Below are positions 6,064-39,557 of a stretch of DNA of 64,000 nt, one piece after another. The translations under genes and the position numbers were made by a program. The DNA comes from Rhizobium sp. BK602 (lineage in GTDB: Bacteria; Pseudomonadota; Alphaproteobacteria; Rhizobiales; Rhizobiaceae), in NCBI RefSeq assembly GCF_014195095.1, contig NZ_JACIBC010000001.1, forward strand, positions 496,001 to 560,000, given 5' to 3'. The notes below the pieces were generated by a model. The model saw nothing but the letters and a program-made list of their open reading frames with translations, did not search any database and was not told the DNA's origin. Within the stretch, counting starts at the first letter, position 1, and every line of letters begins with the position of its first letter.

Positions 6064-6345
6064 GTGATCGTTTCATACAAGGGGAAGTTCGCTGAAGCTG
6101 TTGCTCTCGGCAATGTACCAAAAGGCTTTCCGGCCGATCTCGTTCGTTCGGCGCAACGCAAGTTGACGATGTTGAACTATGCGGCTGCGCTGGATGATCT
6201 GCGATCGCCGCCCGGCAACCGTCTGGAGCGGTTGCACGGCGATCGTTCAGGTCAGCATTCGATCAGAATCAACGACCAATGGCGCATCTGCTTCCTATGG
6301 ACCGAGGCAGGGCCGCGTGATGTCGAGATCGTGGACTATCACTGA
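6064..6345 (+). CDS. higB: HigB-family toxin (RelE/ParE-like mRNA interferase)
   Basis: This 93-residue protein matches the plasmid-maintenance killer/HigB fold: a basic N-terminus, the LERLHGDRSGQHSIRIN stretch and the QWRICFLW core strand, ending in EIVDYH. HigB toxins cleave mRNA at the ribosome. There are two adjacent GTG codons (6061 and 6064), and the second gives the more usual MIVSYKGKF start. The toxin gene precedes the antitoxin, as is usual for higBA, and the stop TGA shares one base with the higA ATG. Its position between cobW and cobN is unusual. Confidence 0.88.
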   Translation: MIVSYKGKFAEAVALGNVPKGFPADLVRSAQRKLTMLNYAAALDDLRSPPGNRLERLHGDRSGQHSIRINDQWRICFLWTEAGPRDVEIVDYH

Positions 6346-6656
6346 TGGAGCGTAACATGACCGAGTCCAGACTTCCGCCGATCCATCCGGGCGAAATTTT
6401 GCGGGAGGAATATCTGAAGCCGCTGACGATGAGCGCCGGTGCTCTGGCGAAGCATCTTAATGTGCCGCGAACGCGCATTGAAAGACTGGTTTCGGAAGAG
6501 ACCGGCGTCACCCCGGATACGGCGCTGCGGCTTGCACGATTTTTCAGCACGACACCGGATTTTTGGATGGCAATGCAAACCGGCTATGATCTCGCGCTCG
6601 CTCAGGCAGAGAAAAGCGATGTTCTAGCCGCCATCAAGCCGCTCCAAGCTGCCTGA
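6345..6656 (+). CDS. higA: HigA-family antitoxin (XRE helix-turn-helix)
   Basis: The 103-residue antitoxin contains the HigA signature IHPGEILREEYLKPL followed by a helix-turn-helix (LAKHLNVPRTRIERLVSE) and the typical TPDTALRLARFFSTTPDFW segment. It neutralises HigB and should repress the operon through the palindrome at 6014-6034. The ATG at 6345 overlaps the higB stop, and a second ATG at 6357 would give a 99-residue form starting MTESRLPPIH. It ends 23 bases before cobN, so cobN may also be read from the toxin-antitoxin promoter. Confidence 0.9.
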   Translation: MERNMTESRLPPIHPGEILREEYLKPLTMSAGALAKHLNVPRTRIERLVSEETGVTPDTALRLARFFSTTPDFWMAMQTGYDLALAQAEKSDVLAAIKPLQAA

Positions 6657-6679
6657 TCAATGAAACGAGTTAACGCGGC

Positions 6680-9600
6680 ATGCATCTCCTCCTAGCGCAA
6701 AAGGGAACGATCAGCGACGGCGAGGAGGCGATCGATCTCGGCCAGTCCCCCGGCGATATTCTCTTCCTGTCCGCCGCCGACACCGAGTTGGCGGCGATCG
6801 CCGCTGCGCATGGGGAGGCTGGCTATTCGCTGCGGCTCGCCAGCCTGATGAGCCTCAAGCATCCGATGTCGGTCGATACCTATATCGAGCGGACGGCGCG
6901 GCATGCGAAGCTGATCATCGTGCGGGCGCTCGGTGGGGCCAGCTATTTTCACTATGCGCTGGAGGCGCTGCATGCCTGTGCCGCGCGCAGCGGTGCGTCG
7001 ATTGCGGTCCTGCCGGGGGATTCCAAGGCCGATCCCGGGCTGACGCCATTTTCCAATGTCGCGCTCGAGGACCTCAATGCGCTGTGGTCCTACTTGATCG
7101 AAGGCGGCGATGCCAATTCGCGGGCCTTTCTCGGCTATGCCGAGGCGATGCTGTCGGGGGCGGACAAGCCGGCTCCGGCGGCGCCGCTGATGAAGGCCGG
7201 GATCTGGTGGCCGGGCAGGGGTGTGATCGGGGTTGAGGAGTGGAGAGGAATCTCGGCGTCCTTGATGGTAGCCGGGGAGGGATTTGCCCCCCCGACCGTC
7301 GCGATTTCCTTTTACCGTGCCCTCGTTCAGAGCGGCGAAACCAAGCCCGTCGAAGCGATGATCGAAGCCCTCGTCGCCGAGGGCATGCGGCCGTTGCCGG
7401 TATTTGCCTATAGTCTCAAGGACCCTGTTTCCGTCGGCATTCTGGAAAGTGTCTTTGCCGAATTGAAGCCGGATGTCGTCGTCAATACCACGGGATTTGC
7501 CGTCTCGGCGCCGGGTGCGGATCGGCAGGCGACCGTATTGGAGGCAAGCGACGCCGTCGTGCTGCAGGCGATCTTCTCGGCGTCTTCCCGGGAGGCGTGG
7601 GAGGCATCGTCGCAAGGGCTTTCGGCGCGCGATCTCGGCATGAACGTGGCTTTGCCGGAAGTGGACGGACGTGTGCTTGCCCGCGCCGTCTCGTTCAAGG
7701 CGGCCGCCCGCTATGACGAGCGCGTCGAGGCCAATATCGTTGCCAGTGAGCCGGCCGAAGACCGGATGCGCTACACGGTGCGGCTTGCCGGCAACTGGGC
7801 GCGGCTGCGCCGGACGCCATCTGCGGAGCGGCGTGTGGCGTTGGTCATGGCGAACTATCCAAACCGCGATGGGCGACTTGGAAACGGGGTCGGATTGGAT
7901 ACGCCGGCGGGCACGATCGAAGTGCTGAAGGCGATGGCGGCGGCGGGCTATCCCGTTGCTGATCTGCCTGGTGACGGCGATGCGCTGATGCGGCACCTGA
8001 TGGACGGTCCGACCAATTCAGGACATGATGGAAAGATCGTCCGCGAGACGCTTTCCATCAGCGAATACAAATATTTCCTCTCGTCTCTTCCGATCCAGAT
8101 TCAAGAGGAGATACAGACACGCTGGGGCGAGCCTGAGGCTGATCCTTATGCCCGTGACGATATGTTCGCCTTGCCCTTTGCCCGTTTCGGCACGGTGCTG
8201 GTCGGCATCCAGCCGGCGCGCGGCTATAATATCGATCCCAAGGAAAGCTATCATTCGCCGGACCTCGTGCCGCCGCACGGGTATCTCGCCTTCTATGCCT
8301 TCCTGCGCCAATCCTTCGGCGCGCATGCCGTCATCCATATGGGCAAGCACGGCAATCTCGAATGGCTGCCGGGCAAGGCGCTGGCGTTGTCGGAGGCGTG
8401 CTATCCCGAAGCGATCCTCGGGCCGCTGCCGCATCTCTATCCTTTCATCGTCAATGATCCCGGCGAGGGCACGCAGGCCAAGCGCCGCACGAGTGCCGTC
8501 ATCATCGACCACCTGACGCCGCCTTTGACCCGTGCGGAGAGCTATGGCCCGCTGAAGGATCTCGAAGCGCTGGTGGACGAATATTACGAGGCTTCGGGCG
8601 GCGATCCCCGCCGCATCCGGCTGCTGCGCAAGCAGATCCTCGATCTCGTCGCCGACATCGGCCTCGATCAGGACGCCGGCATTGCCAAAGGGGAGGGCGA
8701 GGACGAGGCGCTGCGGAAGCTCGACGCCTATCTTTGTGATCTCAAGGAAATGCAGATCCGCGATGGGCTGCATGTCTTCGGCGTCTTGCCGGAAGGCCGG
8801 CTGCTCACGGATTTGACCGTGGCGCTGGCGCGCGTGCCGCGTGGTTTGGGCGAGGGCGGCGATCAGAGCCTGCAGCGGGCGATCGCGCGGGATGCTTTGA
8901 CCCCGGATGCGGATTTCGATCCTCTGGATTGCGATATGGCTGCCGAATGGACCGGCCAACGCCCCGAGATCCTTGTCAATATTTCCGACGATCCCTGGCG
9001 CACCCAGGGCGATACCGTCGAGCGTATCGAACGTCTGGCTGCGAAACTCGTCGCTGGCGATATCACATGCCCTGAAAGCTGGCCGCACACGCGCGCTGTC
9101 GTCGCGGAAATCGAAGCCCGGCTGAAGCCCTCGATCCTCGCCTGCGGCGAAGCGGAAATCTCGTCCTTGATGAAAGGTCTCGACGGCCGGTTCGTACCGC
9201 CCGGCCCCTCGGGCGCACCAACGCGTGGTAGGCCTGACGTCCTGCCGACCGGACGGAATTTCTATTCGGTCGACAGCCGCGCCGTGCCGACGCCGGCGGC
9301 TTACGAGCTTGGCAGGAAGTCGGCGGAGCTCCTGATCCGCCGCTATGTGCAGGATCACGGCGAGTGGCCGGTTTCCTTTGGGCTGACGGCCTGGGGCACG
9401 TCGAACATGCGCACCGGCGGCGACGATATCGCCCAAGCGCTGGCGCTGATCGGCGTCAAGCCGGTCTGGGACATGACCTCGCGCCGCGTCACCGGTTACG
9501 AGATCATTCCGCCGGCACTGCTCGGCCGGCCGCGCGTCGACGTCACGCTGCGTATTTCCGGCTTCTTCCGTGACGCCTTTCCGGAGCAGATCGCGCTGTT

Positions 9601-27532: not shown

Positions 27533-28498
27533 TCAGGAGAGGCAGGTCTTCAGGGAACTGGCGATGCCGCGCATCAGGTCGAAATAGAGGTCCGGGCCTT
27601 GCGGCAGGGTCGCCGCTTCCGGATCGAGAACGCCGGATTTCGCCGAAGTGCCCTCGATCACGACATTGACCAGCTTGGGCTCGAATTGCGGTTCGGCGAA
27701 GACGCAGGTGGCGCCGAGGTCTGCGAGCTTGCCGTGGATTTCCGAGACCCGTTCCGCGCCGGGAATGGTTTCCGGGCTGACCGTGATGGAGCCAGCGACG
27801 TGCACGCCATAGCGGCGTTCGAAATATTGATAGGCGTCGTGGAAGACGATGAATGGCTTGTCTTTGACCGGGGCGACGGTTGCGACGATCTCGGCGTCGA
27901 GCGCATCCAGCCGGTCGTCCAGCGCCTTTTGGTTGGCTTCGTAGGTCAGGGCATTGGCAGGGTCGGCCGCGACCAATGTCGTGGTGATCTCCGCAGCCAT
28001 TGCCTTGGCATTGTGCGGGTCGAGCCAGAGATGCGTGTCGAATTCCTCATGGCCGTGGTCATGATCATCGTGATCGTGTCCGGCGCTTTCGGCGTGCTCG
28101 TCGCCATCGTCATGTGCTTCGAAGGGGCCGCCTTCGCGGAATTTCAGCTTGGCGATGCCGGGCGCCTTGTCGAGCTCGACGACAAGCGCATTCGCGCCGA
28201 GGGCGGATAGCGGTTTTTCGAGGAAGGCTTCCATGCCGGGGCCGACCCAGAAAACCACCTTGGCCCCCTGGAGAGCTCGCGCATTCGAAGGCTTCAATGC
28301 GTAGGTGTGCGGTGAGGCGGCGCCATCGACGATCAGATCGGGCGTACCGACGCCCTCCATGATCGCGGCGACGAGCGAATGGATCGGCTTGATCGACACC
28401 ACCACGTTTGGAGGATCGGCGGCCAGCGCGGTGCCGGAAAAAAGTCCGGAGAACAGCAGCGAGGCGGCGAGGGGGAGGATGGTTTTTACCATGGTCAT
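27533..28498 (-). CDS. znuA: Zinc ABC transporter substrate-binding protein ZnuA
   Basis: The 321-residue periplasmic zinc receptor of ZnuABC. It has a signal peptide ending in SGTALA-ADPP, the cluster A-I start VVVSIKPIHSLVAAIM with a metal-binding His, SPHTYALKPS, a His/Asp-rich loop near 130-155 (HDDGDEHAES... HDHDDHDHGHEE), and HLWLDPHNAK and VFHDAYQYFERRYG further on. There are ATG codons at 28498 and 28492. It is divergent from znuC, and two candidate Zur boxes lie between them. A terminator follows the gene. Confidence 0.95.
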   Translation of the reverse strand: MTMVKTILPLAASLLFSGLFSGTALAADPPNVVVSIKPIHSLVAAIMEGVGTPDLIVDGAASPHTYALKPSNARALQGAKVVFWVGPGMEAFLEKPLSALGANALVVELDKAPGIAKLKFREGGPFEAHDDGDEHAESAGHDHDDHDHGHEEFDTHLWLDPHNAKAMAAEITTTLVAADPANALTYEANQKALDDRLDALDAEIVATVAPVKDKPFIVFHDAYQYFERRYGVHVAGSITVSPETIPGAERVSEIHGKLADLGATCVFAEPQFEPKLVNVVIEGTSAKSGVLDPEAATLPQGPDLYFDLMRGIASSLKTCLS

Positions 28499-28521
28499 AG
28501 AGGATCGCCCTTGAATGGGTC

Positions 28522-28536
28522 TGTTATGTTATTACA
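28522..28536. promoter_or_regulatory. Candidate Zur box, znuA side
   Basis: TGTTAT-GTT-ATTACA is an imperfect palindrome (5 of 6 arm pairs) 24 bases upstream of the znuA start. It matches the Zur-type pattern found in alphaproteobacteria (AT-rich arms of about six bases around a 3-base centre). Confidence 0.65.
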
Positions 28537-28543
28537 TCAATTG

Positions 28544-28558
28544 CGTTATGCTATAACG
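28544..28558. promoter_or_regulatory. Candidate Zur box, znuC side
   Basis: CGTTAT-GCT-ATAACG is a perfect 15-base palindrome about 40 bases upstream of znuC. Together with the box seven bases away it gives each of the divergent znuA and znuCB-zur units a site for Zur. Confidence 0.75.
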
Positions 28559-28597
28559 TGTGCGATAGCAGGGCGCAACAGCGCAAGTGGAAATTTC

Positions 28598-29494
28598 ATG
28601 CTTTCTTCCGTGGACAATCAGAGCCGGCCACTGGTGTCGCTCCAGGATGTCGGCGTCCGCCGCGACGGACGCTGGCTGGTGCGCGGCGTCGACTTTTCGG
28701 TGAGCCGCGGCGAGATCGTCACGCTGATCGGCCCGAACGGCTCTGGCAAATCCACCAGCGCCAAGGCGGCGATTGGCGTGCTGAAGCCGGACGAAGGCCG
28801 CGTCGAGCGCGTGACCGGTCTCAAGGTCGGTTATGTCCCGCAGAAGCTTGCAGTCGATTGGACGTTGCCACTCAGCGTCCACCGCCTGATGACACTAACC
28901 GGGCCGTTATCCCAATCTGAATTGACGGCGGCGCTGGAGGCGGTGGGGATTGCCCATCTTGCCAAGGCCGAGGTACAGCACCTGTCCGGCGGCGAATTCC
29001 AGCGGGCGCTGCTGGCGCGCGCCATCGCCCGCAAGCCGGATCTGCTGGTGCTGGACGAGCCGGTGCAAGGCGTCGATTTCAACGGCGAGATCGCCCTTTA
29101 CGACCTCATCAAGTCGATCCGCAATTCTGAGGGCTGCGGCATCCTGCTGATCTCGCACGATCTGCATGTCGTCATGGCGGCGACGGATACGGTCGTTTGC
29201 CTGAACGGTCATGTCTGCTGCCGTGGCACGCCGCAGACCGTCAGCCAGAGTCCGGAATATGTCCGGCTGTTCGGCACGCGGGCGGCGCAGTCGCTGGCGA
29301 TCTACAGCCACCATCACGACCATACGCATCTGCCTGACGGGCGCGTGCAGCATGCCGACGGCACGATCACGGATCACTGCCATTCGGGCGACGGTCATCA
29401 CGAGCACGATCATCAAGATCATGACCATGCGGACCATGAGCATGATCACCACGATCACGGCCACCATCATGCGGAGGGGACGCGCCATGTTTGA
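28598..29494 (+). CDS. znuC: Zinc ABC transporter ATPase ZnuC
   Basis: The 298-residue ATPase has Walker A GPNGSGKST, the signature LSGGEFQRALLARAI, Walker B LLVLDEPVQGVD and switch His in ISHDLH. The C-terminus extends by about 50 residues rich in His and Asp (for example HHEHDHQDHDHADHEHDHH), a likely zinc-binding or sensing tail, also seen in other rhizobial ZnuC proteins. The ATG at 28598 gives the family start; the frame runs open into the intergenic region. The stop overlaps znuB by eight bases. Confidence 0.95.
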   Translation: MLSSVDNQSRPLVSLQDVGVRRDGRWLVRGVDFSVSRGEIVTLIGPNGSGKSTSAKAAIGVLKPDEGRVERVTGLKVGYVPQKLAVDWTLPLSVHRLMTLTGPLSQSELTAALEAVGIAHLAKAEVQHLSGGEFQRALLARAIARKPDLLVLDEPVQGVDFNGEIALYDLIKSIRNSEGCGILLISHDLHVVMAATDTVVCLNGHVCCRGTPQTVSQSPEYVRLFGTRAAQSLAIYSHHHDHTHLPDGRVQHADGTITDHCHSGDGHHEHDHQDHDHADHEHDHHDHGHHHAEGTRHV

Positions 29495-30314
29495 CGATTT
29501 CTTCCTGCGCGCCATCCTGGCCGGCGTCGGACTGGCCTTGACCACCGGACCGCTCGGCTGCTTCATCATCTGGCGGCGCATGGCCTATTTCGGCGACACC
29601 ATCTCGCATTCGGCACTGCTCGGCGTGGCGTTGTCGCTGCTGTTCCAGCTTAACCTGACGCTCTCCGTCTTCGCGGTGGCGGCACTCGTCTCGATCCTGC
29701 TTCTGTTCCTGCAGCGCAGGCAGGCGCTGTCGGCCGATGCGCTGCTCGGCATTCTCTCGCATGCGACGCTGGCGATCGGCCTTGTCATCGTCGCCTTCAT
29801 GAGCTGGGTCAGGATCGATCTCATCGCCTTCCTGTTCGGCGATATTCTTGCGGTCAGCCGTTCGGATGTCGCGATGATCTGGGGCGGGGGCATCCTCGTC
29901 TTGGCGGCGATCGCCTGGCTTTGGCGGTCGCTGCTGGCATCGACCGTCAACCCCGAACTGGCGGAGGCCGAGGGGCTGAACCCCGAGCGAGCCAAGCTGT
30001 TCTTCATGCTGCTGATGGCGGTCGTCATCGCCATCGCCATGAAGATCGTCGGCATTTTGCTGATCACGGCGCTGCTGATCATTCCCGCCGCCACCGCCCG
30101 CCGCTTCGCGGCGACGCCGGAGATGATGGCGGTCTTCGCCTCGCTGGTCGGCGCGGTCGCCGTCGTCGGCGGGCTGTTCGGCTCGCTGCATTATGACACG
30201 CCATCCGGCCCGTCGATCGTCGTCGCGGCGCTCGGTCTGTTTATCATCAGCCTGCTGCCCCTTGCCCGCAGGGGTAGCGCGCCGGCGGCGCAACAGAGAG
30301 GACAGGAATCATGA
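29487..30314 (+). CDS. znuB: Zinc ABC transporter permease ZnuB
   Basis: A 275-residue inner-membrane permease of the ABC-3 family with about eight hydrophobic segments: GPLGCFIIWRRMAYFGDTIS is the cytoplasmic family signature near the N-terminus, and ITALLIIPAATARRFA the second. It forms the zinc channel with ZnuC and ZnuA. The start lies inside the end of znuC (eight shared bases), and zur starts inside its stop (ATGA), so znuC-znuB-zur is a single translationally coupled operon. Confidence 0.95.
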   Translation: MFDDFFLRAILAGVGLALTTGPLGCFIIWRRMAYFGDTISHSALLGVALSLLFQLNLTLSVFAVAALVSILLLFLQRRQALSADALLGILSHATLAIGLVIVAFMSWVRIDLIAFLFGDILAVSRSDVAMIWGGGILVLAAIAWLWRSLLASTVNPELAEAEGLNPERAKLFFMLLMAVVIAIAMKIVGILLITALLIIPAATARRFAATPEMMAVFASLVGAVAVVGGLFGSLHYDTPSGPSIVVAALGLFIISLLPLARRGSAPAAQQRGQES

Positions 30315-30709
30315 CCACTCCGATGCTCACCAAGAACCAGTCGCTCGTCTTCGACGTGCTGACCAAGGCGGAGGGGCCGCTCAGCGCCTATACCATCCTC
30401 GACAAGCTGCGCGACCACGGTTTTCGCGCGCCGCTGCAGGTCTATCGTGCTTTGGACAAGCTCTTGGAATATGGCGTGGTGCACCGGCTGGAGAGCATCA
30501 ATTCCTTCGTCGTCTGCGCCCATCCGAACGAGGATTGCCACAGCCACGGCCTCGTCGCCTTCGCCATCTGCGAAAGCTGCGGCCAGGTGATCGAATTCCA
30601 CGACCATGAGGTTGACCACCGGCTGATGGACTGGCTGAAATCGCAGAAATTCAAGGCCGAGAAGTCGACCATCGAAATCCGCGGTCATTGCGCTGGATGC
30701 GCGGCCTAA
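30311..30709 (+). CDS. zur: Zinc uptake regulator Zur (Fur family)
   Basis: The 132-residue repressor has a winged-helix N-terminal half (GPLSAYTILDKLRDHGFRAPLQVYRALDKLLEYG) and a metal-binding half with ICESCGQVIEFHDHEVD and the C-terminal CAGC; the two CxxC pairs should hold structural zinc. It should bind the palindromes near znuA/znuC and the GTPase gene. It is the last gene of znuC-znuB-zur, so it also represses itself. Its stop overlaps the stop of the convergent carbonic-anhydrase-like gene. Confidence 0.95.
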   Translation: MTTPMLTKNQSLVFDVLTKAEGPLSAYTILDKLRDHGFRAPLQVYRALDKLLEYGVVHRLESINSFVVCAHPNEDCHSHGLVAFAICESCGQVIEFHDHEVDHRLMDWLKSQKFKAEKSTIEIRGHCAGCAA

Positions 30710-31947: not shown

Positions 31948-32284
31948 GGCAACTCTTCAAATGTTCAATCTGTATCTGGAAGACCTATGGCCCTCCGACT
32001 CCGTTGATCAACCTAGCATCATTGTTGCCGCCGGGAAAACCGGTCTTGGAGAAGGTTTTGATGTGGAGCACGGATAGAAAGGTTTCCCGTCCAGGCCGAT
32101 GAACCGCTCTCGGTTTTTCCGCATCGCCGTATCGCACTATCGTCGCCCAAGAGATCCCATAGTCATCGAGAGAAGCTTTTGTCATCGCGTATCGCGGATG
32201 CTATGGTGGGCCGTTAGTACGGCAATACCATGTTAGCTGACCTATTCTCGTTTATCTGATTTCACACCCGCAGAGGAGAATTGC
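31948..32284. other. Intergenic region upstream of the repeat-peptide gene
   Basis: The gap of 337 bases separates the divergent FAH gene from the repeat-peptide gene. Base composition is lower in GC than the flanks. A minus-strand 66-codon ORF (31985-32185) is present, but it has no ribosome-binding site that I can identify and no recognisable family. A plausible sigma-70-like promoter for the repeat-peptide gene lies at 32179-32207. The gene itself has a strong ribosome-binding site (AGAGGAG, six bases before ATG). Confidence 0.6.
32179..32207 (+). promoter_or_regulatory. Putative sigma-70-type promoter of the RiPP-like operon
   Basis: TTGTCA (32179-32184) and TATGGT (32202-32207) are separated by 17 bases, a good -35/-10 pair placed about 75 bases upstream of the repeat-peptide start. 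This is a pattern match only. Confidence 0.35.
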
Positions 32285-32824
32285 ATGTCTAAAATGATGA
32301 TTCTAGGCGTAAAGGGTGAAGCCGGTCTATGGCTCGTTGACTTTGATGCAGGCACCGTCACCGCGATGGACGGCAGTCGTGAAGACTTTATCTCTGGTGA
32401 CGACAGCGACGATAAATTCGAAACCGACCTTGATGTTGCGGTCGGCTTCGAGACGAAGGAAGTAGCATTCTCTGGTCAGTTCTTTCAGTCCAAGGCAGCG
32501 GATGTCGCCGTTGGCTTCGAACCGAAAGAGGCAGCTTTTTCCGGTCACGTCTTCAGAAGCCCGGGGGCAGATGTTGCCGTTGCCTTTGAGCCGAAGGAAG
32601 CGGCGTTCTCCGGGTTGCTCTTTCAGTCCAAGGCAGCGGATGTCGCGGTTGGCTTCGAACCGAAGGAATCAGCTTTTTCCGGTTTGTACTTTCAGTCCAA
32701 GGCAGCAGACATTGCGGTTGCCTTCGAACCGAAGGAAACAGCCTTCTCTGGTCACTACTACAAAACCCCGGACACAGACGTCGACGTTGCGGTCAAGGCC
32801 AAGGAGGCGGCGTTCTCCGAATGA
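32285..32824 (+). CDS. Tandem-repeat peptide, probable multi-core RiPP precursor
   Basis: A 179-residue acidic protein. Residues 1-49 are unique and could serve as leader (MSKMMILGVKGEAGLWLVDF, then an Asp-rich linker GDDSDDKF). Residues 50-164 are five uninterrupted repeats of exactly 23 residues, consensus DVAV[GA]FEPKEAAFSG followed by three variable positions ending in an aromatic residue. Residues 165-179 are a shortened sixth copy ending AKEAAFSE. There is no cysteine. The gene has a strong ribosome-binding site and is followed by a YcaO gene and a TfuA gene on the same strand, so it is best read as the substrate of these two enzymes. I do not recognise the family; a repetitive structural or secreted protein is the alternative. 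Confidence 0.8.
   Translation: MSKMMILGVKGEAGLWLVDFDAGTVTAMDGSREDFISGDDSDDKFETDLDVAVGFETKEVAFSGQFFQSKAADVAVGFEPKEAAFSGHVFRSPGADVAVAFEPKEAAFSGLLFQSKAADVAVGFEPKESAFSGLYFQSKAADIAVAFEPKETAFSGHYYKTPDTDVDVAVKAKEAAFSE
32432..32821 (+). repeat. 69-bp in-frame tandem repeat array in the precursor gene
   Basis: Five direct repeats of 69 bases start at 32432, 32501, 32570, 32639 and 32708, and a shortened sixth starts at about 32783. Sequence between copies is largely conserved at DNA level (for example GGCTTCGAACCGAAGGAA and TTTCAGTCCAAGGCAGC recur), while the codons for repeat positions 16-18 vary. The protein variants at 16-18 are QFF, HVF, LLF, LYF and HYY. This points to amplification by slippage or recombination with diversification at one site. 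Confidence 0.92.
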
Positions 32825-32881
32825 TCGACCGATAGCCGGTTGCGAAATGTTCGGAGTTCCGTCCGCTCTGCTCTCGGTCGA
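32825..32881 (+). promoter_or_regulatory. Inverted repeat between precursor and YcaO genes
   Basis: TCGACCGA (32825-32832) starts at the base after the precursor stop codon, and its perfect complement TCGGTCGA (32874-32881) ends six bases before the YcaO start. The 41-base loop lacks a T-run at its end, so it is not a classical terminator. Such a stem could stabilise the precursor mRNA or limit translation of the enzyme genes. Confidence 0.45.
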
Positions 32882-32886
32882 ATAGC

Positions 32887-34086
32887 ATGATTTCCGACGC
32901 GCCATTGACTTCTTATTCCGATCGCAGTTGCTCTCCGAATGAGACAATGGCGCGTATCATGCCATCGCTGAGAAAGCATGGAATAACCCGGCTTGCCCGA
33001 TTGACCGATCTGGACAGGATCGGCATTCCCGTCTGGAATGCCATCACGCCCAATTCACGCTCCATCGTCATCAACCAGGGCAAGGGGATCGAAGACATAG
33101 ACGCGAAGGTGTCGGCGGCGATGGAAGCGCTGGAGCGCTCTGTTGCCGGAAATCCACAAATCGAGAGCCGGCTGACAAGCTTCCGACAGCTGGAATCCGA
33201 AGGGTCTTTCGGCGATCCGCTGCATTGTCTGATTTCGGTCGGGCGAAGCGAAATACAGGCCGAGGAAGCGGTAGCCTGGACGCTGGGACATGACATTATT
33301 GCCGAACGCGATGTGTGGGTCCCTCGTGACGCCGTCCTGCTCGACGACACACAAGCGAACAGATTCTGGCAATCTTCGGATGGTCTTGCGTCCGGCAACA
33401 CGCTCCTCGAAGCGACGTTTCATGGCTTGCTGGAACGCATCGAACGCGATGCGGAAGTGATCTCGCAGTTCGGTTCCACGGAAGAGAGAAGACGACGCTG
33501 TATCGACGTGGCTTCGTTGTGCGACCCTGTTCTCAGCGGTCTCGCGCAGCGGGTTTGGGATGCGGGGTTTCGACTGCAGATGTTCGACACGACAAGCGAC
33601 GTCGGCATTCCTTGCTTCGAAGCCTTCATGGCGCCGGTCGTGCCGTCCGAAATTGCGTTGCGCTACATTGAGGTGACCTACGGCGCCGGGGCTCATCCGA
33701 ATCCGGTTCGTGCCGCGATCAGGGCCGTTACCGAAGCAGCCCAGTCAAGACTGACATATATCAGCGGTGCCCGTGACGACATCCATCCCGACACCTTCGC
33801 GCGGCCGCTTCCAGACCACTTGCGTGATGCACTGTTCATGCAGCCGAATAATTATGCTCCGCTACCGAATACGGTCATGCGAGCGACGCTCGGTGACATG
33901 CTCCAGGGCGTTGTCGGCAAGCTCAAGGCGGTGGGAGTGAAGTCCGCAATCGTCGTGCACCTAAACCCGGCAGAGGATGATTTCAGCGTGGCGAAGGTTC
34001 TTGTCCCCGAATTGGAAAACCCGGATGGGAAACGAAAGCGAAGGTTTGGGTCTCGTGCGCTGAAGAGGATCATGAAGTCGAGATGA
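32887..34086 (+). CDS. YcaO-domain peptide-backbone-modifying enzyme (TfuA-associated type)
   Basis: A 399-residue YcaO protein. The ATP/Mg-binding signatures are intact: NQGKGIEDIDAKVSAAMEAL with following ER (63-84), SDGLASGNTLLEATFHG and ERIERD (164-188), and GAGAHPNPVRAAIRAVTEAA followed by QSRLTYISGARDD (266-298). The C-terminus ends KRIMKSR, without the Pro-rich PxPxP tail of azoline-forming YcaOs. YcaO enzymes activate a peptide amide oxygen by phosphorylation; with TfuA the known outcome is backbone thioamidation. The next gene is TfuA, joined by an ATGA overlap. The ribosome-binding site is weak, and a second ATG at 32947 is a possible start. Confidence 0.93.
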   Translation: MISDAPLTSYSDRSCSPNETMARIMPSLRKHGITRLARLTDLDRIGIPVWNAITPNSRSIVINQGKGIEDIDAKVSAAMEALERSVAGNPQIESRLTSFRQLESEGSFGDPLHCLISVGRSEIQAEEAVAWTLGHDIIAERDVWVPRDAVLLDDTQANRFWQSSDGLASGNTLLEATFHGLLERIERDAEVISQFGSTEERRRRCIDVASLCDPVLSGLAQRVWDAGFRLQMFDTTSDVGIPCFEAFMAPVVPSEIALRYIEVTYGAGAHPNPVRAAIRAVTEAAQSRLTYISGARDDIHPDTFARPLPDHLRDALFMQPNNYAPLPNTVMRATLGDMLQGVVGKLKAVGVKSAIVVHLNPAEDDFSVAKVLVPELENPDGKRKRRFGSRALKRIMKSR

Positions 34087-34793
34087 AGGTGATTTTCGCA
34101 GGCCCCACGCTTTACGGTGCAAATTTGCCGTCAAACGCCGGCTACCAGCTGCGCCCGCCCGCCAGACAGGGAGATTTCCACAAAGCCATTCAGGACGGTG
34201 CCACGGTCATCGGGCTCATTGACGGGGTTTATGAGTATGTCCCCGCCATCTGGCACAAGGAGATTCTGTTCGGACTTGCGCAAGGGGTTCATATCTTCGG
34301 GGCTGCGAGCATGGGCGCCCTGAGAGCCGCGGAATGTGCCGCATTCGGTATGATGGGGATTGGCGAAATCTTTGACGGCTACATGAGCGGTGCATTGGAA
34401 GACGATTCCGATGTTGCGCAATCTCATGCCCCCACCGAGGTGGGCTTCCTTCCTCTCAGCGAGCCCCTCGTCAATGTCCGCGCGACGATTTCGAGATGCT
34501 TGCAACTTTCGTACATCACAGCTGCCGAGCATGATCAACTCTTGGCGGCCGCGAAAGCGATTTTCTTCAAGGAGCGTACCTATAAGCGCCTGGTGCTGTC
34601 AGCTATTCCGGATGGAACCCGAGCATCCGAGGTGTTGGCGATATTGCGTGCAAATAGTGTCAATCAGAAGCTTCATGACGCGCAACTCCTTGTCGAAGCG
34701 GTCATGAGAACACCCGATCGACGCGTTGCTCCTCAAATCAATTGGACATTTGAGGCAACAAATTTTTGGAAAGCCACGTTTCCGGTCTGCTAG
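34083..34793 (+). CDS. TfuA-domain protein, partner of YcaO
   Basis: A 236-residue protein with the TfuA core: IFAGPTL (4-10), RPPARQGDFHKA, IGLIDGVYEYVPAIWHKEI (43-61) and IFGAASMGALRAAE (71-84). TfuA proteins accompany a subset of YcaOs (first named in the trifolitoxin locus) and in methanogen McrA modification and thioviridamide-type pathways are needed for thioamide formation, probably by handling sulfide. The ATG overlaps the YcaO stop, so the two should be made in fixed ratio. Residues 110-236 are less conserved and end with WTFEATNFWKATFPVC. No further biosynthetic, protease or transport gene follows. Confidence 0.92.
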   Translation: MKVIFAGPTLYGANLPSNAGYQLRPPARQGDFHKAIQDGATVIGLIDGVYEYVPAIWHKEILFGLAQGVHIFGAASMGALRAAECAAFGMMGIGEIFDGYMSGALEDDSDVAQSHAPTEVGFLPLSEPLVNVRATISRCLQLSYITAAEHDQLLAAAKAIFFKERTYKRLVLSAIPDGTRASEVLAILRANSVNQKLHDAQLLVEAVMRTPDRRVAPQINWTFEATNFWKATFPVC

Positions 34794-36798: not shown

Positions 36799-37254
36799 AT
36801 GAAGATGCCCAGCCGCAAACATACTGAAATAAGAAGGGTTGCTATATTGAGCGATAGTGGTGATATTTTCGGTTCATTTGCCTGCGGAATGTTACTAGGT
36901 TCGATATTGTCGCTTTTTATTTTTGCTGAGCAAGTTAGAGGTAACGTACTTACAGAAGGTACACCCATGCAGTATGCGGATGTAGTCACAATAGTCTTAA
37001 CATGTGTGACCGTTGTTATTACCTGTGTCAGTATTGTTCTTGCGATATTGGGTGTCTTCGGCTTCCAACAATTAAAACAAAATGCGGTCGAAGCCGCCAT
37101 TCGGCATGTCGAAAAAGAGCTTTCTACCGGAGGTAACTTAAGGTCGCTTCTGGAAAATAGGGTTGATGCGATGGTCGCAAGCTATGCCAAGCAAGAAGTC
37201 AAGTCAGACGACTGGGGCGATGAAAACGATGAGTACGGTGAGGCAGCATCATGA
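36799..37254 (+). CDS. Two-TM membrane protein of an AT-rich accessory module
   Basis: A 151-residue protein with two hydrophobic segments, about residues 23-45 (FGSFACGMLLGSILSLFIFA) and 61-88 (VVTIVLTCVTVVITCVSIVL). A helical, partly charged cytoplasmic region follows (QQLKQNAVEAAIRHVEKELS) and ends in an acidic tail. No family recognised. Codon usage is AT-rich compared with the surrounding core genes. Its stop overlaps the start of the metallopeptidase gene (ATGA), so the two should act together; this pairing recalls membrane effector plus regulator protease modules, but that is inference. Confidence 0.75.
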   Translation: MKMPSRKHTEIRRVAILSDSGDIFGSFACGMLLGSILSLFIFAEQVRGNVLTEGTPMQYADVVTIVLTCVTVVITCVSIVLAILGVFGFQQLKQNAVEAAIRHVEKELSTGGNLRSLLENRVDAMVASYAKQEVKSDDWGDENDEYGEAAS

Positions 37255-37748
37255 GCGCGGAATGGCAAAGACTAGCGCCTGAGATACGTGTGCTATTAGA
37301 GAAATACCATCAGACTATACCGGTTAAACTAGGTGAACTCGCCAAAGAGTTGGGGCTTGCCGTAAAAGCTGCAACGTTGGACGTTGGCATCTCGGGCGAG
37401 ATTGCTCCTGATCCTGATATTGTCGGAGCTTTCAAAATTCGCATAAATAGACATGAAGTTAAGACCAGGCAGAGATTCACCCTAGCTCACGAGATTGCGC
37501 ATTTTTTGCTGCATAAGGATCGCATAGGTAACGGAATCGTTGACAATATTCTCTATCGTTCAACGCTCTCGGACAAATACGAAGCGGAGGCGAATAGACT
37601 TGCGGCTGATATCTTGATGCCGGAAGCCGTGATTTTAGATTGGCGGAAGCAAAGAAAAGGGCTGGCTAAAAGAGAGTGTGTTCATCCTTTGGCTGAGCTT
37701 TTTGGTGTTTCCGAAGATGCGATGTCGATTAGGCTAGGGCTTAAATAA
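37251..37748 (+). CDS. ImmA/IrrE-family metallo-endopeptidase
   Basis: A 165-residue zinc peptidase of the DUF955/COG2856 family. The active site HEIAH lies in RFTLAHEIAHFLLHKD, and the third-ligand region is EAEANRLAADILMPEAV. ImmA-type peptidases cleave phage or ICE repressors, and IrrE switches stress genes, so this one may cleave a regulator within the island. No helix-turn-helix domain is fused, and no cognate repressor gene is nearby. It overlaps the membrane-protein gene and is followed directly (TAAATG) by the beta-family gene. Confidence 0.9.
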   Translation: MSAEWQRLAPEIRVLLEKYHQTIPVKLGELAKELGLAVKAATLDVGISGEIAPDPDIVGAFKIRINRHEVKTRQRFTLAHEIAHFLLHKDRIGNGIVDNILYRSTLSDKYEAEANRLAADILMPEAVILDWRKQRKGLAKRECVHPLAELFGVSEDAMSIRLGLK

Positions 37749-38855
37749 ATGCTTAGAAGTCCTGTGGAACTCACGTACATTCCTATTCTAACCGTACGTC
37801 CCGCCGAGATGGTGGCTTTGCGCGAGCTTCCTGATCTAGCCAAAGATCGCATGCTCCCTCATATTATCCTGCGACCATGGCTCAATTCAAATGAGCTGAG
37901 AAAATCTATCGATAAGATTCAACATGCGTATGGCAAACGACCATGGATTGTCGAACTAGATGATGACATCGACTACGCAAGCGAGAGCCCAGCGTGGCAA
38001 CAGATGCAATCGCTTCAAAATCCGGAAAAGGGATTCGCGAACTGGATCAATTTTGTTGCGCGCATAGACTATGCCATTCCGGTTTTACAGATAAGTGAAG
38101 ACAGTGAAGCAGTCGAGAAACAGATTGCTGCTGTGAAGGAGCTTGGTCGCGGAGCAGTGGTTCGGTTCCCAGCGCAAGTATTTCATGTGGTGCCGAAGTT
38201 CGTGGATTTCCTACAGCGGTCAAATTACAATGATGTGCTGTTTATACTTGATTTTGGCCAAGCGGATCAGCGGATATTGACGCGGTACATAACGGCTAAG
38301 GCCCAATGCGATGCTATTATTTCACGTTTCCCAGATGCAAGCATAGCTATATCAGCGACGACGTTTCCTTTCGAATTCTCTGAAATCAACAAGCAGGCGA
38401 TTTTTGAGCGCGAGTTCTATTTGGAATTGGCCAATCAGAATCCTCAACTAAAGCTAATTTACAGTGACCGTGGGAGTGCTCGCGCCGAGAGGTTGGGCGG
38501 GGGAGGAACTCCTATGCCGAGAATAGACCTTCCTGGCTCAACGGTTTGGCGCTTTTTTCGCGAAGAGGTTGGACAAATTGTTTTTGGAAAACGTGTGATC
38601 ACGGCAGAAGAGAGAGAAAGCGGCTATCGATCGGCAGCGGCGAGGGCTATCAATGATCCGGCATGGGATCATAATTTGAATATCTGGGGTACCCAGTTGA
38701 TTAAGCTAACGCAGATCGGTGCAGACTACTCAATCAACGCCCCGGTTAGAGCAACTGCCGCCAGAATAAACATCCACTTATTTCGGCAATCCACCTTTGG
38801 TTACGCCGGTGATATTAGTAATCTAACTGAAGATGATTGGTCTGACGATTTGTAA
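37749..38855 (+). CDS. Beta-family protein (T4 beta protein-like)
   Basis: A 368-residue protein whose start YIPILTVRPAEMVALRELP and repeated blocks (PHIILRPWL, VLFILDFGQ, AISATTFPFEFSE, LIYSDRGSARAERLGGGG) match the 'beta protein' family found in phages and mobile bacterial islands. The biochemical function is unknown. It belongs to the three-gene AT-rich unit with the membrane protein and IrrE-like peptidase; there is no spacing between the preceding stop and this ATG. Its 3' end overlaps the convergent sce7726-like gene by 41 bases. Confidence 0.8.
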   Translation: MLRSPVELTYIPILTVRPAEMVALRELPDLAKDRMLPHIILRPWLNSNELRKSIDKIQHAYGKRPWIVELDDDIDYASESPAWQQMQSLQNPEKGFANWINFVARIDYAIPVLQISEDSEAVEKQIAAVKELGRGAVVRFPAQVFHVVPKFVDFLQRSNYNDVLFILDFGQADQRILTRYITAKAQCDAIISRFPDASIAISATTFPFEFSEINKQAIFEREFYLELANQNPQLKLIYSDRGSARAERLGGGGTPMPRIDLPGSTVWRFFREEVGQIVFGKRVITAEERESGYRSAAARAINDPAWDHNLNIWGTQLIKLTQIGADYSINAPVRATAARINIHLFRQSTFGYAGDISNLTEDDWSDDL

Positions 38856-39489
38856 TATCCTGGGCAAATAGGTTCCACTTATTTTCTCTAATTTCAGACA
38901 GCTTTTTTCTTTCTTCTCTGTTTGCAAAATGAGGATTTAGATACAGTAGCTCTTCGCGAGTTATTTCCTTTCTTTCGAAAGCTCTTGCTGTCAATTCGAT
39001 GTTTTGGTGGTATTTTTTATTAATAATTTTATTGAGTATAATTCTTGCGCTATTTCCATTATTCTTAATATTTTCTCTCTCAGATATCATATATCTTTCG
39101 ATGAAGCTGTTAGGTATTCTTTTTGTTCTGCCTTTTATTTCTGTTGTGATCCTTCTTTTTTGATATCGTAGTAGAGTTACCTCATTCATTTTGCATATTT
39201 CTGCCGCATTATTAATGTGTATCTCATCTGCAACAATGACGACGTGATCAAAATAACTCTTGTATATCTCTATTTGTTTATCTAGGCGACGGAGCGAGTC
39301 TTTTGCACTTTTAACTTCGAAGGCATACAATAAGTTGTTGCTACGCAAAGCTATATCTGCACGCGCTCCGCATTTTCCATTACTGAACTCGTGTATGAGA
39401 ATTGTATCGTGGAGAAAGTGATACTTTCTCACGATATGGTTGATAGTGGAAATTTTAAGTTCAAATTCAGCAGATACCATCTGGCCCAT
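38815..39489 (-). CDS. sce7726-family protein, PD-(D/E)XK nuclease-like
   Basis: A 224-residue protein with a compact nuclease-like motif: RADIALRSNNLLYAFEVKSAKD places Asp46, Glu59 and Lys61 in a D-(x)12-E-x-K order, preceded by a possible Glu35. The next stretch RRLDKQIEIYKSYFDHVVIVAD is typical of the sce7726 family, which often accompanies beta-family or sce7725 proteins. The C-terminal half is Lys/Asn/Ile-rich, and the DNA is very AT-rich, clearly different from uvrB next to it. It is convergent with and overlaps the beta-family gene. A restriction-like or defence role is plausible but not shown. Confidence 0.8.
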   Translation of the reverse strand: MGQMVSAEFELKISTINHIVRKYHFLHDTILIHEFSNGKCGARADIALRSNNLLYAFEVKSAKDSLRRLDKQIEIYKSYFDHVVIVADEIHINNAAEICKMNEVTLLRYQKRRITTEIKGRTKRIPNSFIERYMISERENIKNNGNSARIILNKIINKKYHQNIELTARAFERKEITREELLYLNPHFANREERKKLSEIRENKWNLFAQDITNRQTNHLQLDY

Positions 39490-39557
39490 CACGATAGAGT
39501 CGACGCTATGATGAGGGAATTATTCTAAGGATTCCTTGGCGGCAAACGAAAATTTGC

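Follow-up and report, generated by a model that had tools for sequence, protein, structure and literature searches.

A tandem-repeat precursor beside YcaO and TfuA genes in Rhizobium sp. BK602: a probable member of a rhizobial thioamide-peptide family

A 64,000-nucleotide stretch of the genome of Rhizobium sp. BK602 (contig NZ_JACIBC010000001.1, positions 496,001 to 560,000 of the forward strand; hereafter the window) was analyzed, and its open reading frames (ORFs) included three same-strand genes at 32285-34793, which encode a repeat protein, a full-length YcaO and a TfuA. The repeat protein is probably the precursor of ribosomally synthesized and post-translationally modified peptides (RiPPs): as judged from the sequence, it consists of a head and five core repeats, each of which YcaO and TfuA would thioamidate, and peptidases would release short thioamide peptides from it. 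We also favor, somewhat more cautiously, a broader view: the locus would belong to an unnamed rhizobial thioamide-peptide family, a Gram-negative counterpart of the thiovarsolins built on a folded head, in which the core was amplified about six separate times, and the window precursor would be the longest of the members detected in this analysis. Precursor, YcaO and TfuA of this family appear to have been separated repeatedly yet kept in the same genome, and therefore several precursors are probably processed in trans by a single YcaO/TfuA set. The features of the locus, in window coordinates, are as follows.

32273-32278, plus strand: GAGGAG, resembling a ribosome-binding site, in front of the precursor gene (read from the sequence)
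32285-32824, plus strand: multi-core precursor, 179 aa (ORF; match to profile A2, which has the window protein among its members, 9e-44)
32285-32392, plus strand: leader head, residues 1-36, predicted beta-beta-beta-alpha (AlphaFold2 and conservation)
32432-32500, plus strand: core unit 1, residues 50-72 (Tandem Repeats Finder and self-comparison)
32501-32569, plus strand: core unit 2, residues 73-95 (Tandem Repeats Finder and self-comparison)
32570-32638, plus strand: core unit 3, residues 96-118 (Tandem Repeats Finder and self-comparison)
32639-32707, plus strand: core unit 4, residues 119-141 (Tandem Repeats Finder and self-comparison)
32708-32776, plus strand: core unit 5, residues 142-164 (self-comparison)
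32777-32821, plus strand: sixth unit, degenerate and truncated, residues 165-179, with AFSE instead of AFSG (self-comparison)
32887-34086, plus strand: YcaO, 399 aa, TfuA-associated type (Pfam YcaO 2.8e-63)
34083-34793, plus strand: TfuA, 236 aa, its start overlapping the YcaO stop by ATGA (PF07812 1.3e-42)

The initial annotation had described a 179-aa repeat protein behind a strong ribosome-binding site, a complete YcaO and a TfuA with an ATGA overlap, and all three descriptions held. The repeats had an exact 23-residue period, with AFS at residues 61, 84, 107, 130, 153 and 176; the first five units carried AFSG, and the sixth ended as AFSE at the stop. Self-identity of residues 47-179 at a shift of 23 was 67%; none of 10000 residue shuffles came that high, the best of them giving 24%, so the repeats are not due to chance. 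Tandem Repeats Finder reported a 69-bp unit in 4.7 copies (32432-32756), and the five complete AFSG units were 48-83% identical among themselves.

The window protein was found to be the expanded form of a family, most members of which have a conserved head, a single core and a length of about 70-72 aa. These single-core relatives end like VDLAVAVSSAQVALSGHVDG, and the short C-terminal core of the family reads A-F-S-G-x-phi-D/E. Among 108 distinct precursors from the loci (the truncated L019 and the weak matches L149-L151 were excluded, and database proteins, which bear P ids, were uncounted), 89 had at most 78 aa and 19 were longer. The repeats stressed in the initial annotation do not define the system: the multi-core window precursor has them, most relatives do not. 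The initial annotation had also held that homologous YcaO-TfuA pairs never accompanied by a repeat gene would speak against the repeat protein as substrate; the pairs were found usually to be accompanied by a precursor of this family that has no repeats.

With the window protein as query, 41 of 100 genomes gave a match, all of them from the genus of the window, and 24 of the 30 loci fetched from this search had a YcaO in their 1.5-kb flanks. The precursor was present in 24 of 151 Rhizobiaceae genomes (source genome included), and among 289 genomes drawn from the class it was found in the source genome only. Members also occurred in Phyllobacterium, Pleomorphomonas, Mesorhizobium and Rhodobium genomes, and a precursor-YcaO relative was located on Sinorhizobium meliloti pSymB. 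A profile search of proteins gave 114 clusters, whose shown names were 'hypothetical' or 'uncharacterized' except for one stray label, with no Pfam domain listed; no Pfam or NCBIfam model matched the precursor family above cut-off in the scans made.

In several lineages the amplified unit was the C-terminal stretch, 5 to 25 residues long. The unit type of 23-25 residues was found in the window and in Rhizobium, Ensifer and R. rhizogenes plasmids, and full-length relatives of this type had two to five AFSG units. The short types were PASGRMDE (about 9 residues), AFSGKLE (four copies), SGGFMDV (three copies), VASGLHE (three copies), GGLHE (three to four copies) and AFSGRLS/AYSGRLN. Most units read S/G/A-G-x-phi, followed by D/E in the short types, whereas the window type has phi-K/R/Q-T/S there. 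The source genome encodes a second YcaO-TfuA pair (L002/L125), with a YcaO 55% identical to that of the window, and the precursor at this locus has a similar head and a different repeat, AASGRFDE-PASTRFDE-AASGRFDN. The family thus showed what is seen in multi-core RiPPs, namely a conserved leader followed by tandem cores whose copy number varies among relatives. In a quickly made tree of 96 YcaO rows, supported by the Shimodaira-Hasegawa-like approximate likelihood ratio test (SH-aLRT) only and with long branches for L149, L147, L148, L137, L129 and others, the eight rows of the 23-25-residue type formed one clade (SH-aLRT 100), the 9-residue type was intermixed with single-core rows (three changes), and the single- or multi-core state changed at least 8 times. 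L067 was omitted from this tree and the GGLHE-type proteins P0103 and P0110 were absent from it; for these reasons, the count of separate amplifications is based in part on how the unit sequences differ. The data support a RiPP-type precursor with repeats that behave as putative cores, and the amplified 5-to-25-residue unit indicates the core without any product in hand.

We analyzed the head of the window precursor by AlphaFold2, which gave a mean predicted local distance difference test (pLDDT) score of 88, 93 and 94 for residues 1-10, 11-20 and 21-30 and of 67 for residues 31-40, and mostly below 50 for residues 44-179; the head is predicted to be folded and the repeat region to be disordered. 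A single-core relative had a mean pLDDT of 82 and the same three strands and helix, for which a known fold is not claimed. Across 46 precursors D19 was invariant, and G8, G11, L15, G23, T24 and V25 were present in at least 90%; the ratio of nonsynonymous to synonymous substitution rates (dN/dS) of codons 1-50 was 0.084 and 0.087 in comparison with two relatives, and these values showed the head to be under constraint. A folded and well-conserved head would also suit small proteins that are partners or regulators of a YcaO-TfuA pair acting on a cellular protein, and not its substrates, and E. coli YcaO is described as modifying uL16 (PMC13063428). However, it was the C-terminal unit alone that was amplified in several lineages, as in multi-core substrates, a change that would seem to bring an adaptor no obvious benefit, and the YcaO type tracked the precursor; we consider partner proteins the least probable of the explanations weighed here.

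A search for homologous precursor-YcaO-TfuA sets, which the initial annotation had proposed, was made in 80 YcaO loci, the best 80 of 230 relatives, from named records. The precursor ended just upstream of YcaO in 68 of the 80 loci, a rate that is biased because the loci were picked via an alignment built from precursor-adjacent YcaOs and those same loci had supplied several of the precursor seeds. At the other 12 loci, of which one was at a contig edge, no precursor was adjacent, but their genomes had one elsewhere in 12 of 12 cases, and the genomes whose precursor has no neighbouring YcaO encoded the same YcaO type, again in 12 of 12. Across the 151 Rhizobiaceae genomes, a YcaO at E <= 1e-101, a threshold chosen after the gap was seen, was found in 24/24 genomes with the precursor and in 1/127 without it (Fisher 5e-27); at E <= 1e-30 the corresponding numbers were 24/24 and 14/127. 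TfuA lay within about 1.5 kb downstream in 57 of the 80 loci. Fourteen loci with precursor and YcaO had no downstream TfuA; with the short contig L075 left out, 13 were tested, and TfuA was found elsewhere in 13/13 genomes. The best TfuA in 12 of those 13 genomes had no YcaO in its 1.5-kb flanks, and further TfuA genes fetched from those genomes adjoined YcaOs, several of them distant. Comparison of the sequences thus showed a family-wide coupling of precursor, YcaO and TfuA and, as in TfuA-YcaO thioamidated RiPPs, ycaO and tfuA are adjacent and a short precursor gene is genetically coupled to them. This coupling and the amplification of the C-terminal core bear out the earlier suggestion that the repeat gene belongs with the YcaO-TfuA pair and that its repeats behave as cores. 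As a separate observation, the precursor of L121, L123 and L124 lay near a TfuA matching that of the window (E 4e-104 or better), and the YcaO was outside the fetched stretch, elsewhere in the genome.

The YcaO of the window is full length and has the complete set of ATP-binding residues; S76, E80, E83, R84, E175, E183, E186, R279, E283 and Q286 were all present and were invariant in 17 aligned sequences (window included). Both enzymes fit thioamidation models as their best-matching ones: YcaO matched methan_mark_1, the model of McrA-type thioamidation, at 9.6e-61 and the SagD azoline model at 1.6e-28, and TfuA matched ThioGly_TfuA_rel at 1.6e-51. By sequence, the nearest solved relative of the YcaO was MJ1094 (6pe3, 1.3e-33), and the sole solved relative listed for the TfuA was 6xp8 (8.1e-33); S76 in the ASMG motif of TfuA was invariant in 5 aligned TfuA sequences (window included).

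Azolines, or another backbone heterocycle at core Ser/Thr in place of thioamides, are also products of YcaO enzymes, and the SagD match and the Ser found just before the core Gly in 50 of the 73 unique single cores would agree with them. However, this Ser was replaced by Ala or Gly in 22 of the 73, residues 47-179 of the window precursor contain no cysteine, and TfuA follows YcaO in the 57 loci mentioned above. Moreover, the E1-like or ocin-ThiF partner that marks linear azole peptides was absent among the neighbouring ORFs scanned (26.2-39.5 kb, not every small ORF scanned), and azolines appear very unlikely. The core Gly was invariant in the aligned sets, as G64 in 46 precursors and as G67 in 35. 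Its occurrence in 73/73 unique single cores was rejected as evidence, because the search pattern itself demands Gly and the count is not independent.

Several points weigh against the proposed thioamidation and release. The McrA-type scores were under the NCBIfam equivalog cut-offs (205.8 of 365 for TIGR03266, YcaO, and 174.7 of 235.2 bits for NF033432, TfuA), the adjacency of precursor and YcaO is the biased rate described above, and TfuA was not found downstream in 23 of the 80 loci (in L051 it lay directly upstream). The core Gly was missing from internal units of the 9-residue type (ASTRFDE, ASIRLDD, ASARLDE) and from the sixth unit of the window. Among the scanned ORFs beside the window trio, none was recognised as a peptidase, exporter or immunity gene, except for zinc-uptake genes and an IrrE-like peptidase at a greater distance; and the chemistry, its site, the release and the function are what we infer.

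A trio without peptidase or exporter, repeats that are predicted to be disordered and a zinc-uptake operon 1.5 kb off could also accord with repeats that stay joined, forming a single long polythioamide chain inside the cell that might bind, for example, metal or sulfur. However, most relatives have one core only (the 89 of 108 distinct precursors with at most 78 aa), the repeats lack Cys, and His follows AFSG in 2 of the 5 units of the window precursor. Among the zinc genes compared, only the ZnuB-like ORF recurred, in one other locus of the 80 (L043), and for this reason the zinc operon was rejected as part of the system. The long chain had been offered as an alternative in the initial annotation; nothing was found to favor it, and we regard it as unlikely.

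For the release of short thioamide peptides, which we prefer, the following course is proposed. The head (residues 1-36) would dock the precursor on YcaO/TfuA. TfuA would free sulfide from a thiocarboxylated carrier, a mechanism taken from the literature (PMC13185837, PMC13063428), and YcaO, with ATP, would activate an amide of the core backbone, the likeliest site being next to the S-G of AFSG, and would thioamidate each repeat. By analogy with the proposal made for thiovarsolins, the units would be set free by general cellular peptidases (PMC6511847).

The window trio is flanked by genes for an FAA hydrolase and a dihydrouridine synthase. AGGAG was common to 8 aligned upstream regions of 23-25-residue-type loci, and no upstream motif beyond this ribosome-binding site was shared among the eight; the upstream regions of the window and L173 were similar over about 100 bases. 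To the left of the trio, at a distance of 1.5 kb, znuA/znuC/znuB-like zinc uptake genes and a Zur-like regulator were found at 27533-30709. At 37251-39492, an IrrE/M78 peptidase-like protein, a Beta_protein family protein (3.6e-49) and an sce7726-family protein (1.6e-21) are encoded in adjoining genes, a possible defence-type cassette.

Some neighbours recurred at related loci: of 81, 64 had a TPR-containing protein (about 620 aa, 'adenylate cyclase' in CP090106) encoded nearby, 39 an XRE protein and 21 a small protein. None of the three is in the window, and all three are at the second locus of the source genome. The TPR protein was missing from 12/12 loci without an adjacent precursor and therefore seems to travel with the precursor. 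The small protein follows TfuA or YcaO (L037 9015-9287, L175 7295-7525, L125 3095-3454) and those of its members that were scanned matched no Pfam or NCBIfam model above cut-off. In L057, L061, L063, L070, L082, L095 and L097 (about 6250-7001), an XRE-like ORF lies directly upstream of YcaO, precursor and TPR protein are missing, and the precursor is elsewhere in the genome. A second, single-core precursor was found in L033, L034, L039 and L067 (about 4.1-4.4 kb), on the opposite strand, with the multi-core precursor about 2.1 kb downstream of it; in L033 it sits behind a divergent TPR protein, and there one YcaO-TfuA pair may serve two precursors. On the R. rhizogenes plasmids pC5.7c and pColt5.8a, single-core and 23-25-residue-type loci adjoin, with a window-type YcaO 88% identical to that of the window. 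On both plasmids the TfuA after the single-core YcaO is broken (L173 12735-13400) and the neighbouring TfuA is complete. Downstream of the plasmid trio, L173 17550-22131 encodes LysR, a heme-oxygenase-like protein, a methyltransferase, an EamA transporter and cysE, which are possible tailoring genes.

Many rhizobia appear able to make peptides of this family, and with a compact cassette from a root bacterium, Gram-negative thioamide peptides and their rhizobial role would become open to direct tests in strains that are genetically tractable. Where precursor, YcaO and TfuA are naturally unlinked, it can readily be tested which of them recognises which.

Among known systems, the phazolicin gene set needs a partner protein and is not known to include TfuA. 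Phazolicin and other rhizobial linear azole peptides are described as YcaO-dependent too, but azole-modified. Trifolitoxin comes from Rhizobium, and its precursor is probably different from that of the window. TfuA has been implicated in trifolitoxin production (PMC4603692). The McrA-glycine proteins (TIGR03266, NF033432) are the best-matching enzyme models, whereas in the window a small repeat protein is proposed as the substrate. Over 500 TfuA-YcaO clusters, with the same enzyme pair and in the same genus as the window, were counted in Rhizobium by Malit et al. 2021 (PMC8120280), whose 797 precursor networks may include the window's family, unnamed. The Rhizobium precursors named in the accessible part of that paper are berninamycin-like and Nif11-like, and a shared head or core amplification is not described there. 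As of 2021, the known TfuA-YcaO thioamidated RiPPs were all actinobacterial (PMC8120280). The pathway had initially been called probably new; in general terms it is not, since Rhizobium TfuA-YcaO clusters (PMC8120280) and a minimal set of repeat precursor with YcaO and TfuA (PMC6511847) are already published. In the literature searched, as far as its accessible text goes, no description was recognised of the shared head, the recurrent amplification, the unlinked sets or the precursor family itself.

Among the closest known systems are also the thiovarsolins, which share the minimal set of an imperfect-repeat precursor, YcaO and TfuA (PMC6511847). In Streptomyces varsoviensis, varA, varY and varT alone on a 3.7-kb fragment gave thioamidated peptides; the cluster has no specific protease, and endogenous peptidases were proposed for release (PMC6511847). 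The thiovarsolin precursor family ranges from non-repeating to five repeats (PMC6511847). The heme-oxygenase-like VarO, a thiovarsolin feature, had no such Pfam match among the scanned ORFs neighbouring the window trio, whereas a heme-oxygenase-like gene is present near the related plasmid trio in L173. The thiovarsolins are actinobacterial, with an APR/GPR core that carries its thioamide between Pro and Arg (PMC6511847), whereas the units of the window read AFSG[HLQ].

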